DNA of 64,000 bases from Bacilli bacterium (GTDB lineage Bacteria > Bacillota_I > Bacilli_A > RF39 > UBA660): assembly GCA_028691955.1 (NCBI GenBank), contig JAQUYH010000001.1, positions 1 through 64,000 on the forward strand, written 5' to 3'. Every line of letters starts with the position of its first letter. Position 1 is the stretch's first letter. Made by a program: the position numbers and the translations under genes. This document shows positions 516 through 8,923 of this stretch, one piece after another. Below the pieces are notes generated by a model, which did no database searches, was not told where the DNA came from, and worked only from the letters and a program-made list of their open reading frames with translations.

Positions 516-1649
516 TTAACTATTTAATAACTGTTCCATCTTATTAGTTACTTCGTTTTGTAAAGCAATTGATACATGACTATAAATTATGTCTGTTGTA
601 TTGCTACTACTATGTCCTAATCTTTTACTGATAACTTTCATTGGAACTCCTAAAGCAATTTGTAAAGAAGCTGATGTGTGTCTTAATGAATGGAAATTTA
701 TTTTAGGTAAGTCATACTTATCAATTATATTTCCTAAAATATGTCTTGGCGTACAAGTGTGCATATATGAGCCTTCTTCAGAAGTAAATACTTTTTTGCA
801 ACCTAACCATTTTGTGCCAAGCTGGTTTTTTAAAAAATCTTGTTGTTTTTTAAATTCTTTTAATAAATCCAAAGTTTTTTCCATTAAAGTTACAGGTCTA
901 ATAGAACTATTGTTTTTTGGTTTATCTTTTTCCTTAATTCCACCCTTAATGGCATAAACAACTTTATTTATATTGATATAACCCATGTCAAAATTTATAT
1001 CTTCCCATTCCAATCCAAGTATTTCGCCAACACGAGCTCCGCTATCAATTGCTAGTCTAATTAATACTTGATATTTTAATGGTTCGTTTTCTAATACTTC
1101 TAATAGTTTTTTAGTTTTTTCTACATTGTAATATTTAGATTCCTTTTTTTCTTTTATAGGTCTATCAATTGCTTCATTTGGATTATCGCTTATTATTTTC
1201 CATCTTTTTGCTTTGTTAAGTATAGCACCAATTAAAACATAATAATGTAATATAGTATTTTCAGTTAATTTTTTAGGAACTCTTTTTTTTCTTAATTTAT
1301 TATAGAAATCTTCCAACACTAACGGATTTAAATTTGCTAATTTTCTTTTCCCAAAATCTTCATTTATAACCTCTAGCATTTTTTCATAACCTATATAAGT
1401 TGTAGGGGATAGATGTTTAACATGTTTTTCCATATATATTTTACTCAATTCTTCAAAAGTGATTTTAGTATAATCAATATCGTTAAGAACTTGGTTTTTA
1501 TACTTTTGAATCATTTCATTTTCTTTATTTTTAGCCTGTCTTTCAGTACCTTTAAAAGTTTTATACTGTCTTATTTTTTTACCTTTATTATTGTACCCAA
1601 TAAAGGCTTCAATCATATATTTGTTTTTATCAATTAATTTAACACTCAT
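516..1649 (-). CDS. int: Tyrosine recombinase / integrase
   Basis: A 377-residue site-specific recombinase that would integrate and excise the element. The N-terminal 55 residues resemble the AP2-like arm-binding domain of Tn916-type integrases; a SAM-like core-binding domain follows (about 65-155); the catalytic domain (about 175-377) shows R in SGARVGEIL, the HSLRH box, H in LGHSS and the tyrosine in IIYSHV, so all key residues are present. Start ATG at 1649 is preceded by GGAGA. It lies downstream of the leftward XRE gene with a 115-base gap containing hairpins. The target appears to be tRNA-Lys(CTT), judging from the remnant at 8879-8923. Confidence 0.95.
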   Translation of the reverse strand: MSVKLIDKNKYMIEAFIGYNNKGKKIRQYKTFKGTERQAKNKENEMIQKYKNQVLNDIDYTKITFEELSKIYMEKHVKHLSPTTYIGYEKMLEVINEDFGKRKLANLNPLVLEDFYNKLRKKRVPKKLTENTILHYYVLIGAILNKAKRWKIISDNPNEAIDRPIKEKKESKYYNVEKTKKLLEVLENEPLKYQVLIRLAIDSGARVGEILGLEWEDINFDMGYININKVVYAIKGGIKEKDKPKNNSSIRPVTLMEKTLDLLKEFKKQQDFLKNQLGTKWLGCKKVFTSEEGSYMHTCTPRHILGNIIDKYDLPKINFHSLRHTSASLQIALGVPMKVISKRLGHSSSNTTDIIYSHVSIALQNEVTNKMEQLLNS

Positions 1650-1703: not shown

Positions 1704-1766
1704 ACACAAGGGCTGACTAAGTTTTTGTGTAACTCTCTCTCTTGTTAGTAGCAAGGGAGTTTTTTT
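1704..1766 (+). ncRNA. Possible small RNA antisense to the repressor-int transcript
   Basis: A rightward TATAAT at 1692-1697 is followed by an 11-bp inverted repeat (GAGTTACACAA at 1699-1709 and TTGTGTAACTC at 1725-1735) and a second hairpin with a T-run ending at 1766. If the promoter works the product is about 60 nt and lies opposite the leftward XRE-int mRNA. The same DNA could instead form a structured int leader. Confidence 0.3.
1737..1766 (+). terminator. Intrinsic terminator
   Basis: CTCTCTTG pairs with CAAGGGAG (one G-T pair), followed by seven T. It faces right and overlaps the stop codon of the leftward XRE gene. Confidence 0.6.
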
Positions 1767-2556
1767 ATTCATACATGGAATTTGCAGCTTTTATTGCTTG
1801 TTCCATTTCTTCACTATAGTATTCTTCAAAATCATGTTGACTTTGTTCAAATAATTTCATTTCAATTTTATTCGCTTTTGCGTTTGTCATTTTTGCAACT
1901 TCCTCAGAATTTCTAATATCACTTGCTATTTTTTCAAATGCTTTTGCAATTTTAAAGTTGTATAATTCTAGATTGGGTACATACAAAGTTTCATCATTTA
2001 AATATTCTTTTGTTGTAGTACTTAGATACGGATTATCTTTACTAGTATAAGATAAATAATCACCAATTAGATATAATATTTTTAAGTCACAGCCTAACAA
2101 TTGATTTACTGCAAATAATACAATATTAGGCCGACTTTCATCATAACCCCATTCAGTAGCATAATTATGTATTCTTTTTAGGTTTGCGATTGCTTTATCT
2201 TCTAATCCGTATTCTTTACCTAAAGAATAATCAACAAAATATTTATTGTCACTAGTACCTAACAAATATTCAAGTGAAACACCAAAATATTTACTTATTT
2301 TAATTAATTGTAAATGTTCTGGTGTTTTTGCGTAGTATGAATTAAGTGCAGGGTCACTAACACCAATTGCTTTTGCAATATCTCTTTCAAGTAGTTTTTC
2401 TCCTTTTAATTTTGCTTTCTCTTTGGCTTCAATAACTAAGCCTTTAAATCTTTTAGAAAAAATATTATTTAGATTTTTTTTCTTTGCCAATAATTCTAGC
2501 TGCTTTTTAGATAATTCCTTTTTCTCTTTTTCTATAAGCTCCTTTTCATTTTTCAT
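1765..2556 (-). CDS. XRE-family repressor with N-terminal coiled coil
   Basis: A 263-residue DNA-binding protein. Residues 1-30 are Lys/Glu-rich and predict a coiled coil; about 35-105 form an XRE helix-turn-helix (ERDIAKAIGVSDPALNSY, then ISKYFGVSLEYLLG); the C-terminal half is unassigned and could mediate dimerisation or inducer sensing. The ATG at 2556 follows AGGAGG. It is divergent from the excisionase-like gene, with repeated TGTCGA motifs between, and runs toward int. By analogy with phage and island repressors it probably keeps the element quiescent; the inducer is unknown. Confidence 0.85.
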   Translation of the reverse strand: MKNEKELIEKEKKELSKKQLELLAKKKNLNNIFSKRFKGLVIEAKEKAKLKGEKLLERDIAKAIGVSDPALNSYYAKTPEHLQLIKISKYFGVSLEYLLGTSDNKYFVDYSLGKEYGLEDKAIANLKRIHNYATEWGYDESRPNIVLFAVNQLLGCDLKILYLIGDYLSYTSKDNPYLSTTTKEYLNDETLYVPNLELYNFKIAKAFEKIASDIRNSEEVAKMTNAKANKIEMKLFEQSQHDFEEYYSEEMEQAIKAANSMYE

Positions 2557-2802
2557 GATTTTTCCTCCTAACGACAGAACTGTAACACTTCAAAAATTAT
2601 TTGTCGAGGGATTTGTTAAATTTTTTTCAAAAAATTAATTAATCGTTTATTTGGGCAACACCTAAAACTAATGATTGTTAAATAAAATCAAGAAAATGAA
2701 AAACTTCCTCGACATAAAGAATGTTTTAGTGATAGTATCTGTCTGTCGACGAAAATGTATCATTTGGATACAAACAAAATTAAAGAATTGGAGGTGTTGA
2801 TT
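2557..2802. promoter_or_regulatory. Divergent control region with TGTCGA operator-like repeats
   Basis: Between the repressor and xis there are four CGACA/TGTCG motifs: CGACAG at 2572-2577, TGTCGAGG at 2602-2609, its exact inverse CCTCGACA at 2707-2714, and TGTCGACG at 2744-2751. This spacing suits a repressor acting on both divergent promoters. The 13-mer TTTTAGTGATAGT at 2724-2736 recurs at 3031-3043 upstream of the replication-type gene. Confidence 0.55.
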
Positions 2803-2988
2803 TTGATTAGAAATGTTTTTAATGTTAAGGAAACTGCTACATATTTACATAGTAGTGAATCACATATAAGAAACTTGGTTAGAAAAAATGTAATACCATA
2901 TTTTAGATTAGGTAATAAAATAATGTTTGACAAAAGTATTATTGATGACTGGCTAACTCATGGTGGAAGTAAGCCCGAGTATACATAA
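2803..2988 (+). CDS. Excisionase-like helix-turn-helix protein
   Basis: A small winged-helix DNA-binding protein of the excisionase/MerR-like helix_turn_helix_17 type: VKETATYLHSSESHIRNLV followed by VIPYFRLGNKIMF and a D-W segment. An in-frame ATG lies at 2755, but the only good ribosome site, GGAGGTG at 2789-2795, sits eight bases before TTG 2803, so I prefer that start (62 codons). It is divergent from the repressor and first in the rightward operon, the usual place for Xis or AlpA-like activators of integrative elements. Likely role: directing excision or activating element genes (inference). Confidence 0.8.
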   Translation: MIRNVFNVKETATYLHSSESHIRNLVRKNVIPYFRLGNKIMFDKSIIDDWLTHGGSKPEYT

Positions 2989-4313: not shown

Positions 4314-4553
4314 TTAATCGTTTTCTTCAAAGAACTTTTTAATATCAATGTCTAGTGCCTCAGATATACGGGCTAATACTTCTATACTAAAAGATTTTTT
4401 TCTTTTTAAACTTTCTATTTCTGCAAGATAGTCATTTGATATTTCAGCAAGTTCAGATAGTGTCTTCTGAGTATAACCTTTTTCGGTACGGTATTTTTTA
4501 ATGTTTTTTCTTATAATATCATAATAATAGTTACCACTGTGTTTAAGTGCCAT
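4314..4553 (-). CDS. Small XRE-family transcriptional regulator
   Basis: A single helix-turn-helix protein of 79 residues: IRKNIKKYRTEKGYTQKTL, then SELAEISNDYLAEIES and ALDIDIKKFFEE, covering the entire chain. An in-frame TTG exists at 4562, but AGGAG sits nine bases before ATG 4553, which I take as the start. It is divergent from the membrane protein gene at 4677 and upstream of the small hypothetical gene at 3925-4227. It is distinct from the larger repressor at 1765-2556, so the element carries two XRE proteins; this one probably controls its immediate neighbours (inference). Confidence 0.85.
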   Translation of the reverse strand: MALKHSGNYYYDIIRKNIKKYRTEKGYTQKTLSELAEISNDYLAEIESLKRKKSFSIEVLARISEALDIDIKKFFEEND

Positions 4554-4676
4554 AAGTACCAACTCCTATTACTATTGTCTAATATTTTTAAAGTTAAGTA
4601 ACTGGGCTTATAGCACTGGACAAAAAACATGCAATAATATATAATTGTTGTAGTGCTTAAAGTACTATTAGGGGTG

Positions 4677-5684
4677 ATGTTTATAAAAAGAATTAAAGAT
4701 AATATTTTTGCAATTTTTGGTATTGCTATTTTAATACTACTAATTGCAACTAAAATACCATTTTTTAAGATTCAACCTGATATTGGTTATAGTCTAGGTT
4801 TGTTATTGTCAATGGCAATAAATATTTCAAAAGCATTTATTATTATCATTACTTTACAAATATTAATAGTATTATTGTTAGTTACTATATTTTCTAAGAT
4901 AGGTGCAAAAATAGTAAGTATTTTATCAATGTTAATTTCATTAGGTTTAATTAATGTATTAGTATTTATTAATTTTTCTAATACAATCGATTACGTAAGT
5001 AGTTATGGGTTTTGGTTATCATTGCTAGCATTTATACTTATTGGTATAAATTATTTTATAAATTTTAGTGATGTGGTTAAGTGTAAGATTAATAATAGTT
5101 TAAAGGAGAAAAAAGAAATGAAAGACATTCTATTTAATAGTCCAAAAAAATTGGTAGCGTTCTCATTTGTTGCAACGATTATTTCAGCTATATGTAGTAT
5201 TTTAGTAATACTGTTTAGCGGAGCGATTGTTGAAATGTCTTATATTATAGTTCTTCTAGTAGTAAACGGTTTTATTGGTTATTTTATTTATTTCTATTAT
5301 TTAAAATATAGAATGGGAAAGTTTAATATTAAATCTTTAAATATAATGATTTTCGTACAATCTTGTATAACCTTTATTTATAAACTATTGGATTTAGATT
5401 ATTTATTTTTACCACTATTATTTATATTAATATATTATTTCATTATATTTTTTAGTAAAAAAGTAAAGTCGATTAAGTCATTAACTTATTTATATAGAAT
5501 TATTCTTATAACATATATGATAGTTTTAGTTTATAATGTTTCAATACAATTAATAAACTATCATTATGGTTATACTTTTGTAAATATTATAAGTACAATC
5601 GCAATGTTATATATGATACCAATAATAAGATATATGTATTTATATGGTAAAAGCATTATAGAAAGGAGAATGAAAAGTGAATAA
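4677..5684 (+). CDS. Multi-pass membrane protein, unknown function
   Basis: About 335 residues with roughly nine to ten hydrophobic segments spread over the whole length and a short cytoplasmic linker near residues 140-155 (NSLKEKKEMKD). No catalytic or transport motif is recognised. The start is uncertain: GTG 4653 lacks a ribosome site, ATG 4677 is very close to AGGGG, and the usual AGGTGAT-to-start spacing of this genome would place the start on an ATA at 4683. It overlaps the next gene by eight bases, so the two membrane proteins are coupled. It is divergent from a small XRE gene and forms accessory cargo of the element. Confidence 0.65.
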   Translation: MFIKRIKDNIFAIFGIAILILLIATKIPFFKIQPDIGYSLGLLLSMAINISKAFIIIITLQILIVLLLVTIFSKIGAKIVSILSMLISLGLINVLVFINFSNTIDYVSSYGFWLSLLAFILIGINYFINFSDVVKCKINNSLKEKKEMKDILFNSPKKLVAFSFVATIISAICSILVILFSGAIVEMSYIIVLLVVNGFIGYFIYFYYLKYRMGKFNIKSLNIMIFVQSCITFIYKLLDLDYLFLPLLFILIYYFIIFFSKKVKSIKSLTYLYRIILITYMIVLVYNVSIQLINYHYGYTFVNIISTIAMLYMIPIIRYMYLYGKSIIERRMKSE

Positions 5685-6012
5685 TGATTTTTTCGAAGGA
5701 CTAGAACAGAAAGAAGAAAATAAACCAATGACTGACAAAGAAGTAGAAGACATGGCAAAGGCATTAAGTGGTACTTTTAATAATTATCAAGTTGATAAAA
5801 AAAACATATATCAAATAGTATCAATTATATTAATAATTTTAGGTGTAATAGTTAGTTTTATATTAAGTGTTAATACTGATTCACCAAGTGCGTTGATAAT
5901 AGGTATTGCTGTATCATTTGTAAGTGGTTTATTCATGTATGGCTTTGGTGAAATAATAAGACAATTAAAAATTGCAAATACTCAATTGAGTTTAATTAAA
6001 AAGAAAAAATAA
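5677..6012 (+). CDS. Small membrane protein with two TM segments
   Basis: 111 residues: an acidic/charged N-terminus (1-30), a polar linker, then two hydrophobic segments (about 47-67 and 72-92, the latter with GIAVSFVSGLFMYGFGE) and a short basic tail ending KKKK. Starts at GTG 5677 after AAAGGAG and overlaps the previous gene by eight bases, so it is translationally coupled to the large membrane protein. A strong terminator follows at 6042-6076, closing this two-gene operon. Function is unknown; two-gene membrane modules on mobile elements are sometimes superinfection-exclusion or toxin-type, but nothing in the sequence shows this. Confidence 0.7.
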   Translation: MNNDFFEGLEQKEENKPMTDKEVEDMAKALSGTFNNYQVDKKNIYQIVSIILIILGVIVSFILSVNTDSPSALIIGIAVSFVSGLFMYGFGEIIRQLKIANTQLSLIKKKK

Positions 6013-6230: not shown

Positions 6231-6261
6231 AACACTATATGTATTTAAATAGTGTTATAAT
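6231..6261 (+). promoter_or_regulatory. Promoter with palindromic operator upstream of the ParB-like/MTase pair
   Basis: AACACTAT (6231-6238) and ATAGTGTT (6249-6256) form a perfect 8-bp inverted repeat with a 10-base spacer, abutting TATAAT at 6256-6261. The palindrome covers where the -35 should be, so a dimeric repressor could block it. The 6077-6230 stretch before it holds no gene. Confidence 0.5.
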
Positions 6262-6301
6262 GAAAAAGAAGTATTACTTGTAAATGTTAGGAGTTGGGAA
6301 A

Positions 6302-7759
6302 ATGGAAAAATATGAGAAATTGGCTATATCTGATTTAGTTTTATGGAAAGACAATGCTCGATACTCAAAAACTTTGGATTCAGAAGAAGATTGTTTAAAA
6401 GAATTATTTGGAAATAAAACTATGAATCAAAAACAAAAAGTTTTACTAAATGATTTGTTCTTAGAATCGAAAATTATTGAAAACTGCATTATATATAAAG
6501 AAGAAATAAATGAAAATGAGTTTCAATATATAGTACTTGACGGGAATAGGCGAATTTCACTTTTTAAAGTATTAAATTATCCAGATTTAGTCAAAAAATA
6601 TGGATTGGATTTTGTTAAATTAAATAGTATTAATGAAAAAATTAGAACCGTTGATTGTAAGATATATGATGATATAAATGAAGCGTATAAGCACGTTGAA
6701 CTTAGGCATTTAGATGAGCAGAATGGAAAAGGTACGGTAAAGTGGGCATCAGAAAATAAAGATAGAATGCTAATAATCCAGGGTAAAGAAGTGGACTCAA
6801 TAGGATATAAAATTATGAAATTTTACGAGTCTACAAACAAACCAGAATTTAGTGAAGTCAAGGCAAAAATAAAAGATAAATCAACTTTAGATAGGATTTT
6901 TGGATTTAAAAATGTGTTTAATGGTATTTTTGGTTTAAAAAGTAAATATGATTATGATTTATATAATCCAGAACATCAAATCAAAATTAATGATATTTTA
7001 AAAAAATTTTATTCCTCAGGTGGAAAAGTCAATTTAGTTTATACTGCTGATTCAACAAAAAAACTACTAGAAGATGTTGAATCTTTGCCTATAGATTCAA
7101 ATCAGATGTCATTAGATATAGCAAATAAAGATAATGATGATAGTAAAAATTTTGTTCCAGAAGTTAATGATTCAAAGAATAATTTTTCCACAAAGAAACA
7201 TAACAAATACACTATAAAAGGAGTAATTTTGTTTGATTGGAGAAGCAGGGGAATAGATTCAAATAATGATTTACTTAATTACTATTTGAAAGAATTAGTT
7301 GATATAGAAAAATTATCAGATTTTGACCAAGCCTTTATTTTAGATATTGCCCCATATTTTTACAGATTATTATTGGATATAAGCATTTCTGATTTGACTT
7401 CACATATTCTAGGAGGATCTGCAGATAGATTTTTAGTACCAAGTTTTAATAAAGAACCATTTAATACTACTTCATCATCTGTTTCGTGTGTTAATCATAA
7501 TAAAATAAGTAGTATAATCAGTATTTATGATAACTTAAGAAAAAATGAAGATAAAAAAACTTTTGAAGAATATAAGAAAGAGTTAAAAAAATATAATTTT
7601 ACTTCAAAGAACGAAACAGCTGTTACAAAATTTGTTCAAGACTTAAATGATGTTATTCACGGTAGTAGTAAAACGTTATCTCCAGAGACTATAGCAAAAT
7701 ATGATAAGATTACTATTATTTTAATTCAATCAATTTATCATTTTATAAAGTTAAAATAG
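6302..7759 (+). CDS. ParB/Srx-like domain protein, putative defence or DNA-modification partner
   Basis: A 485-residue protein. The N-terminal part (about 1-130) resembles the ParB/sulfiredoxin-like fold: a LAISDLVLWKDNAR opening and VLDGNRRISLFKVL near residues 77-90, matching the DGNRR box of ParB-like nucleases/NTPases. The central region (about 130-285) is unassigned and ends in a polar linker. The C-terminal region (about 300-485) is helical and ends in an LNDVIHG motif (about 447) like the LN..VH element I associate with C-terminal domains of stand-alone ParB-like proteins. ATG 6302 follows AGGAG. The adenine methyltransferase gene follows by 57 bases. A role in phage defence with that enzyme is inference. 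Confidence 0.65.
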   Translation: MEKYEKLAISDLVLWKDNARYSKTLDSEEDCLKELFGNKTMNQKQKVLLNDLFLESKIIENCIIYKEEINENEFQYIVLDGNRRISLFKVLNYPDLVKKYGLDFVKLNSINEKIRTVDCKIYDDINEAYKHVELRHLDEQNGKGTVKWASENKDRMLIIQGKEVDSIGYKIMKFYESTNKPEFSEVKAKIKDKSTLDRIFGFKNVFNGIFGLKSKYDYDLYNPEHQIKINDILKKFYSSGGKVNLVYTADSTKKLLEDVESLPIDSNQMSLDIANKDNDDSKNFVPEVNDSKNNFSTKKHNKYTIKGVILFDWRSRGIDSNNDLLNYYLKELVDIEKLSDFDQAFILDIAPYFYRLLLDISISDLTSHILGGSADRFLVPSFNKEPFNTTSSSVSCVNHNKISSIISIYDNLRKNEDKKTFEEYKKELKKYNFTSKNETAVTKFVQDLNDVIHGSSKTLSPETIAKYDKITIILIQSIYHFIKLK

Positions 7760-7816
7760 GTATGGCCAAATATAGAGAAAAGTGATATAATTTATTTACA
7801 ATAAAGGAGGCTTTTT

Positions 7817-8635
7817 ATGAATGCTTATTCACCGTTAAGATATCCTGGTGGAAAAGGGCAAGTATATGATACAGTCGTAGCAATATTAGAAGATAATCAT
7901 TTGTCAAATTGTACTTACATTGAGCCTTTTGCAGGTGGTGCTGGAATAGCAATAAGATTGTTATTTGAAAACAAAGTAAAAAGAGTAATTATAAATGATA
8001 TTGATAAATCAATATATTCAGTTTGGTATGCTATTTTATATAATACTGATGAATTTATAAAAATGATAGAAGAAACGCCCATTACTATTAATGAATGGTA
8101 TAAACAAAAGGATATTCAGAATAAAAAAGATAGTGTTTCTATTTTAGAATTAGGATTTTCAACTTTCTTTCTTAATAGAACCAATCGCTCTGGAATAATA
8201 AAGGCTGGTGTAATTGGTGGAAAATCTCAAAATGGAAACTATAAAATAAATTGTCGATTTAATAAAGAAAAATTAATTGAATTGATTAGAAAAATTGCTA
8301 AATATAAAAATAAAATTAAAATATACAATGATGATGCTAAAAAGTTAATGTCACGATATAGGAATAAAGAAAAACAATTATTTTTTATTGACCCACCATA
8401 TTTTGAAAAAGGTAAAAATTTATATACTAATTTCTTTAATGAAAAAGACCATGAAATACTTTCTTTATTCATTAAAAAGAATTTATATAATCAAAGATTA
8501 TTAATTAGTTATGATAATTGTCCTCAAATTGAGAAATTATACAAGGGCTTTAAATCAGAAATATTTTTATTAAATTATAGTGTTCAAAATAAAAAAAAGG
8601 GTGAAGAGATATTTTTTAAAAAAAATTTGATTTAG
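7817..8635 (+). CDS. DNA adenine-N6 methyltransferase, D12 (Dam-like) class
   Basis: A 272-residue enzyme that transfers methyl from SAM to adenine N6. Class features in order: SPLRYPGGKG (residues 5-14), FAGGAG SAM-binding motif I (about 37-43), NDID acidic turn, FFLNRTNRSG and the catalytic DPPY (about 192-195). Length is normal for Dam-type enzymes. The ribosome site AAAGGAGG is strong, and a TATAAT-like box at about 7785 may give it a second promoter. The target sequence is unknown. No recognisable restriction endonuclease lies beside it; its only neighbour is the ParB-like gene, with which it probably forms a functional pair. It is the last gene before the att site. Confidence 0.9.
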   Translation: MNAYSPLRYPGGKGQVYDTVVAILEDNHLSNCTYIEPFAGGAGIAIRLLFENKVKRVIINDIDKSIYSVWYAILYNTDEFIKMIEETPITINEWYKQKDIQNKKDSVSILELGFSTFFLNRTNRSGIIKAGVIGGKSQNGNYKINCRFNKEKLIELIRKIAKYKNKIKIYNDDAKKLMSRYRNKEKQLFFIDPPYFEKGKNLYTNFFNEKDHEILSLFIKKNLYNQRLLISYDNCPQIEKLYKGFKSEIFLLNYSVQNKKKGEEIFFKKNLI

Positions 8636-8878
8636 ATTTTAATGTTTAAAGTGGGTGGACATTTATCTACTTTAAGCCTTTTAGCAATTGTAAATAATTA
8701 ATTATGAAATTATAGCCCCTCAGTATAAAAAATATTAAACAGTCGGACAGTCAGTCGGACAAATATATATCAAAAATTAATAACAGATAATATTCTGTAT
8801 CATTGCTATTATAGAAAAATGTTAGAATATATTAGTATTTAGTAATTTATAATAAAGCATAATTAATAACTTTTAAAA
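8636..8878. other. Non-coding right end of the element
   Basis: No gene is visible. A hairpin at about 8645-8674 (TTAAAGTGGGT with ATCTACTTTAA, two G-T pairs) lacks a good T-run and may be a weak terminator for the methyltransferase. Direct repeats lie at 8740-8761. The rest is featureless AT-rich sequence leading to the tRNA remnant. Confidence 0.5.
8740..8761. repeat. Two direct copies of CAGTCGGACA near the att site
   Basis: The 10-mer occurs at 8740-8749 and 8752-8761, a 12-base period, about 120 bases inside the right att site. GC content is higher than the surroundings. Likely binding sites for the integrase arm domain or Xis; inference only. Confidence 0.6.
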
Positions 8879-8923
8879 CTCTTAATCAGTGGGTCTGCGG
8901 TTCAAGCCCGCAAGGGGACACCA
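8879..8923 (+). other. att site: 3' half of tRNA-Lys(CTT)
   Basis: The sequence matches a tRNA from the anticodon loop onward: loop CTCTTAA (8879-8885, anticodon CTT), stem strand TCAGT, variable loop GGGTC, T-arm TGCGG/TTCAAGC/CCGCA (8896-8912), acceptor strand AGGGGAC, discriminator A and CCA (8921-8923). Upstream bases cannot form the D-arm, the acceptor 5' strand or the anticodon stem partner, so the gene is cut in the anticodon loop. This is the expected product of tyrosine-recombinase insertion in a tRNA gene. Confidence 0.85.

Follow-up and report, generated by a model that had tools for sequence, protein, structure and literature searches.

A divergent PD-λ-5 gene pair in a tRNA-Lys(CTT) element and apparent partner exchange around its methyltransferase clade

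Two neighbouring genes, here called A and B, in the window (the whole 64,000-nucleotide stretch of DNA that was analysed) are, as judged from their sequences, a divergent copy of PD-λ-5, a described two-gene anti-phage system that joins a ParB-fold protein to a DNA adenine methyltransferase. In the reading that we favour, with a probability of roughly 0.6, this copy is carried in a ~10 kb tRNA-Lys(CTT) element, B would mark DNA as self, and A would both sense and act. The pair is ordinary in kind; the part worth following is the apparent exchange of partners around the methyltransferase clade to which B belongs.

The gene pair and its PADLOC matches

Gene A occupies positions 6302–7759 of the forward strand (last codon ending at 7756, stop codon to 7759) and encodes 485 residues. 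An in-frame ATG at 6284, upstream of this start, would give a protein of 491 residues; the ATG at 6302 has an AGGAG-type site immediately 5′ of it, in agreement with the 485-residue length given in the first-pass annotation. After a spacing of 57 bp, gene B (7817–8635, same strand) encodes a 272-residue D12-class N6-adenine DNA methyltransferase (PF02086, 6.7e-24) in which the motifs EPFAGG and DPPY are both intact, as expected from the earlier claim that all catalytic motifs are present. When compared with PADLOC, A matched 19 PD-Lambda-5_A models, namely PDLC03998 as the best (5.7e-33, covering only residues 7–299) and 18 others, and B matched the PD-Lambda-5_B model PDLC04018 at 4.4e-114 over residues 2–269 of 272. 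The initial guess that the two genes form a defence pair was right, as both match PD-Lambda-5, albeit not new, because PD-λ-5 has been known since 2022.

PD-λ-5 was obtained as a two-gene system by functional selection in E. coli, for which λvir was used, and was termed a compacted RM+Abi system by its authors (Vassallo et al. 2022, PMC9519451). In E. coli it changed plaquing or plaque size for all but one of ten phages, with the strongest effect on T-even phages, and only the E. coli system has been shown to protect against phage (PMC9519451). No mechanistic study of PD-λ-5 was found in the open-access literature. For the A–B pair in the present host an anti-phage function is predicted, which pairing and fold alone do not establish.

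Upstream of A, an inverted repeat of the form AACACTAT-N10-ATAGTGTT (palindrome AACACTATATGTATTTAAATAGTGTT, positions 6231–6256, 0.01 expected by chance) abuts a perfect TATAAT at 6256–6261, for which no −35 element was found. The palindrome reported at the −10 is real and does touch TATAAT, but its operator role, and with it the tight control that had been suggested, is unproven; the repeat is possibly an operator or an AT-rich hairpin. A second, similar inverted repeat is found at the element's opposite end (L264:2041–2066), so that the element carries two copies of this ACACTAT...ATAGTGT type.

The element in tRNA-Lys(CTT)

The right attachment site (8878–8923, forward strand) adjoins the A–B pair and corresponds to the 3′ half of tRNA-Lys(CTT), which starts in the anticodon loop and reaches as far as CCA. 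Its first 19 bp (8878–8896) form a repeat, ACTCTTAATCAGTGGGTCT, that is common to the right and left sites. Relatives carry an intact tRNA-Lys(CTT) gene, and in the same genome an intact copy is located near the end of contig C25, the final 127 bases of which are identical, on comparison by eye, to positions 1–127 of the window. Given this identical overlap, the window is most likely the continuation of C25, a join that is drawn from the overlap and not from reads. With C25 joined to the window and ACTCTTAATCAGTGGGTCT shared, the element would measure ~10 kb, and both of its ends would fall within the tRNA-Lys(CTT) anticodon loop. The features of a tRNA-inserted tyrosine-integrase element, i.e. 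an integrase and attL/attR direct repeats in the tRNA, are present, and the first-pass annotation was borne out both in locating the pair at an att end and in describing it as two-gene defence cargo at the right end of an element. The tmRNA was ruled out as integration site because the tmRNA of this genome has a different end. A search of relatives for an empty site, anchored on the SDR gene downstream, found no tRNA next to that gene.

The gene order runs from a DUF4238 gene just inside the left end, by the intact tRNA-Lys (L264:963–1964, G000:C25; 2.4e-19), through DUF2188, a tyrosine integrase in the left part of the element (516–1649, reverse strand; PF00589, 3.2e-25), HTH proteins, a RepO-like ORF and two membrane-type ORFs to A and B. 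The HTH proteins include a repressor-like protein (1765–2556, reverse strand; weak HTH_3 match, 8.7e-4) and an HTH_17 excisionase-like protein (2755–2988, forward strand; PF12728, 2.4e-10). Within window positions 4314–6012, an HTH gene on the reverse strand is divergent from two membrane-type ORFs (4653–5684 and 5677–6012), the second of which displays only marginal similarity to KwaA and SLATT_1; this stretch may be a further cargo module.

Fold of protein A and its pairing with B

Protein A gave no Pfam match and no meaningful NCBIfam or PDB sequence match, and a single-sequence search matched 1 plasmid but nothing among viral contigs or phage records. Since this search found almost nothing, homologues were sought by profile-based scans. 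In the 71 sequences compared, the GNRR (residues 81–84) of the ParB box VLDGNRR (78–84) is invariant; near the C-terminus, H453 of the motif LNDVIH (448–453) is kept in 68/71, and R355, which sits on a helix separate from the H453 motif, in 65/71. The approximate layout of A comprises a ParB/Srx domain (residues ~1–140), a helical middle, a low-confidence linker (~260–310) and a helical HEPN-like domain (~310–485). In the AlphaFold2 model (pLDDT 67.5 overall) most N-terminal blocks reached 75–93, and Foldseek against the PDB returned ParB, Noc and KorB (best E 2.5e-4), followed by sulfiredoxin, with probabilities up to 1.00. At the level of the predicted model, a ParB/sulfiredoxin fold is confirmed for the N-terminal region. 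The ParB/Srx-like label, the DGNRR box and the C-terminal LN..IH motif, all noted initially from the sequence, were recovered in this analysis.

The window protein's own model was poor at the C-terminus, and this domain was consequently modelled on the homologue L068 (from 70 sequences; pLDDT 96, all helical) and transferred to A via an alignment at ~20% identity. The top three of its best PDB matches were HEPN toxins, all non-significant (E 1.1–2.0, probability 0.33–0.38, TM 0.40–0.48); a BFVD fold search gave no significant match, and Pfam matches to HEPN_RiboL-PSP, Csm6 HEPN and DUF4145 were confined to single members and all weak. The canonical HEPN catalytic R-x4-6-H is absent, with L-[NQHC]-x-x-x-H found instead in most members. 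Thus, despite the conserved R355 and H453, the HEPN-like label for this predicted domain is reasonable but unproven. A has no Pfam nuclease match, so there is no separate recognisable restriction endonuclease as in type II restriction-modification; the earlier remark that a recognisable restriction enzyme is missing holds by motif, but the partner A bears a predicted effector domain.

Scanning from A, a clade B methyltransferase was found within 500 bp in 76 of 80 A homologue loci; three of the four loci without B (L208, L227 and L248) end at a contig edge, and the sole uncut exception, L245, is a weak match. Scanning from B yielded 39 viral contigs with a clade member, 24 of them with an adjacent A homologue, L081 among these carrying an ATPase as well, and 14 with an AAA_15/AAA_21 ATPase instead of A, and L093 ends at a contig edge; A or an AAA ATPase was found beside clade B in 38/39 viral loci as compared to 0/41 more distant Dam-like loci. 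The two scans have some contigs in common and contain near-copies, and are therefore not fully independent samples. A search of 392 genomes of the phylum gave 8 B-clade matches at E < 1e-70, the next-best being 2e-23; five of the eight have an adjacent A (PDLC03998 search), one a partial A (L044), L040 has an ATPase instead of A, and L042 is without a visible partner. The last (G295:C1:1015–1848), with no A or ATPase in the sequence examined, is the only clear lone B. Pairing of A with B is nearly obligate, A usually being the first gene. In one genome (G076, loci L014/L043) the A homologue is broken by an in-frame stop, with its C-terminal part a separate small ORF, and is either decayed or truly split.

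These counts bear on the suggestion that A is a plasmid-type partition protein next to an unrelated methyltransferase. The ParB fold would be in keeping with such a role, as would a weak RepB match (0.008) in one A homologue. However, no ParA was found among the Pfam-scanned element ORFs, the ParA-binding motif [LFI]G[KR]G[LFI] is absent from translated A, and the near-obligate methyltransferase neighbour contradicts it, which leaves this reading very improbable. Neither of the two outcomes that the first-pass annotation had named as speaking against a defence pair, rare co-occurrence and a partition protein with a ParA partner, was observed.

Partner exchange, mode of action and related systems

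The methyltransferase clade pairs with either A or an AAA_15/AAA_21 ATPase and appears to have switched partners repeatedly. In a tree of 52 rows, built by a quick method with SH-aLRT support only, the partner label has to change eight to nine times on the best tree, and the starred branches alone force at least 3 (ParB label) or at least 2 (ATPase label). The clearest case is provided by the A-bearing locus L087 and the ATPase loci L083 and L088: their methyltransferases are 77–82% identical, and the DNA similarity of L087 to L083 or L088 is limited to the methyltransferase gene. Methyltransferases from ATPase pairs match PADLOC PD-Lambda-5_B (2.6e-122, 5.8e-124) as strongly as those from A pairs. 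ATPase–methyltransferase loci were located at L265:1930–4579, L266:1924–4636 and L147:1693–4346, as well as in the viral loci L070, L072, L074–L077, L080, L083, L088, L089, L095, L096, L100 and L102; pairs of this kind are found next to an integrase or inside an integrating conjugative element, and one of them is present in 85/5426 complete E. coli genomes. A viral contig (L081:1241–5394, also L174) carries three genes in the order ATPase, A, B. No named pair of a methyltransferase and an OLD-ATPase was found in the open-access literature, subscription papers and preprints lying outside the search.

Partner switching points to a module that marks self and can take different effectors. The odds seem about even that PD-λ-5 belongs, as a single branch, to a modular family whose one m6A methyltransferase clade marks self and whose two unrelated effectors, A and the AAA_15/AAA_21 ATPase, swap, occasionally both being present. 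If so, the ATPase version would be a second defence system, missed by the PADLOC PD-Lambda-5_A models.

In the favoured reading, B would methylate adenine at a specific DNA motif, by which resident DNA would be marked as self. A would be both sensor and effector; its ParB/Srx domain would bind nucleotide and DNA, as the fold and the conserved GNRR suggest, and A would read DNA without B's mark or sense the loss of B, after which the HEPN-like domain would halt growth of the infected cell or destroy nucleic acid. B's mark is proposed as the shared signal because effectors exchange around one methyltransferase clade. The main rival, though an unlikely one, is a PrrC-like guard arrangement, in which B keeps A inactive in a complex and the HEPN-like domain of A, once released by phage anti-restriction proteins, DNA mimics or B shutdown, kills the cell. 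The RM+Abi label given to PD-λ-5 by its authors would fit, as would the rarity of A lacking B (a single uncut locus), and the PrrC analogy has been drawn for HEPN in R-M systems (PMC3710099); against this, A usually precedes B, and partner exchange would require B to bind two unrelated folds.

Less likely again is a modification-dependent effector, with A recognising B-methylated DNA, or with B modifying incoming phage DNA that A attacks. ParB folds do occur in the modification-dependent GmrSD (ParB + HNH) and in the modification system DndB, and PD-λ-5 protects best against T-even phages, which carry modified DNA. However, the host chromosome would be B-methylated too, and A would therefore have to rely on some further cue to leave the host unharmed; moreover, protection is broad, the selection used λvir, and service of the same B clade to a second, unrelated partner fits marking of self better. 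The first-pass description of the system as modification-dependent is retained as one of three readings, whereas the RM+Abi label implies that methylation marks self. The wider survey offers a handle on which half of PD-λ-5 takes the self/non-self decision: if one methyltransferase clade serves two unrelated effectors, exchange of effectors between natural pairs would reveal whether both respond to methylation state as a shared signal.

Compared with known systems, B resembles the D12/Dam methyltransferases (TIGR00571, E. coli Dam 2g1p) in its D12 family, catalytic motifs and PF02086, but scores 75.6 bits with the Dam model TIGR00571, under the cut-off of 114.9 bits, and falls in a clade of its own that is linked with a partner gene. 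HEPN–ParB fusions were listed in 2013, when it was also noted that HEPN is fused only to restriction-side subunits and that HEPN, ParB nuclease and methylase form an operon (Anantharaman et al., PMC3710099). Like the Saro_3948-type fusions and the MAE_28990 HEPN neighbourhood (ParB nuclease, DNA methylase; PMC3710099), A combines a ParB fold and a HEPN-like domain beside a methylase; unlike the fusions it lacks the canonical R-x4-6-H, the likeness being one of architecture. The ATPase that replaces A belongs to the broad AAA_15–AAA_21 class of OLD-like, AriA and PtuA ATPases (PARIS, Septu, Gabija), with weak matches to many systems and no specific model, and is absent from the window. The likeness to PD-λ-5 itself lies in the PADLOC matches of both proteins, their adjacency on one strand with a short gap, and the mobile-element context. 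In contrast to that system, the present A is divergent, with the best model spanning only part of it and ~20% identity to most viral homologues, and its host is a ~1 Mb AT-rich bacterium, no proteobacterium; a known defence system is now placed in a little-studied small-genome lineage.
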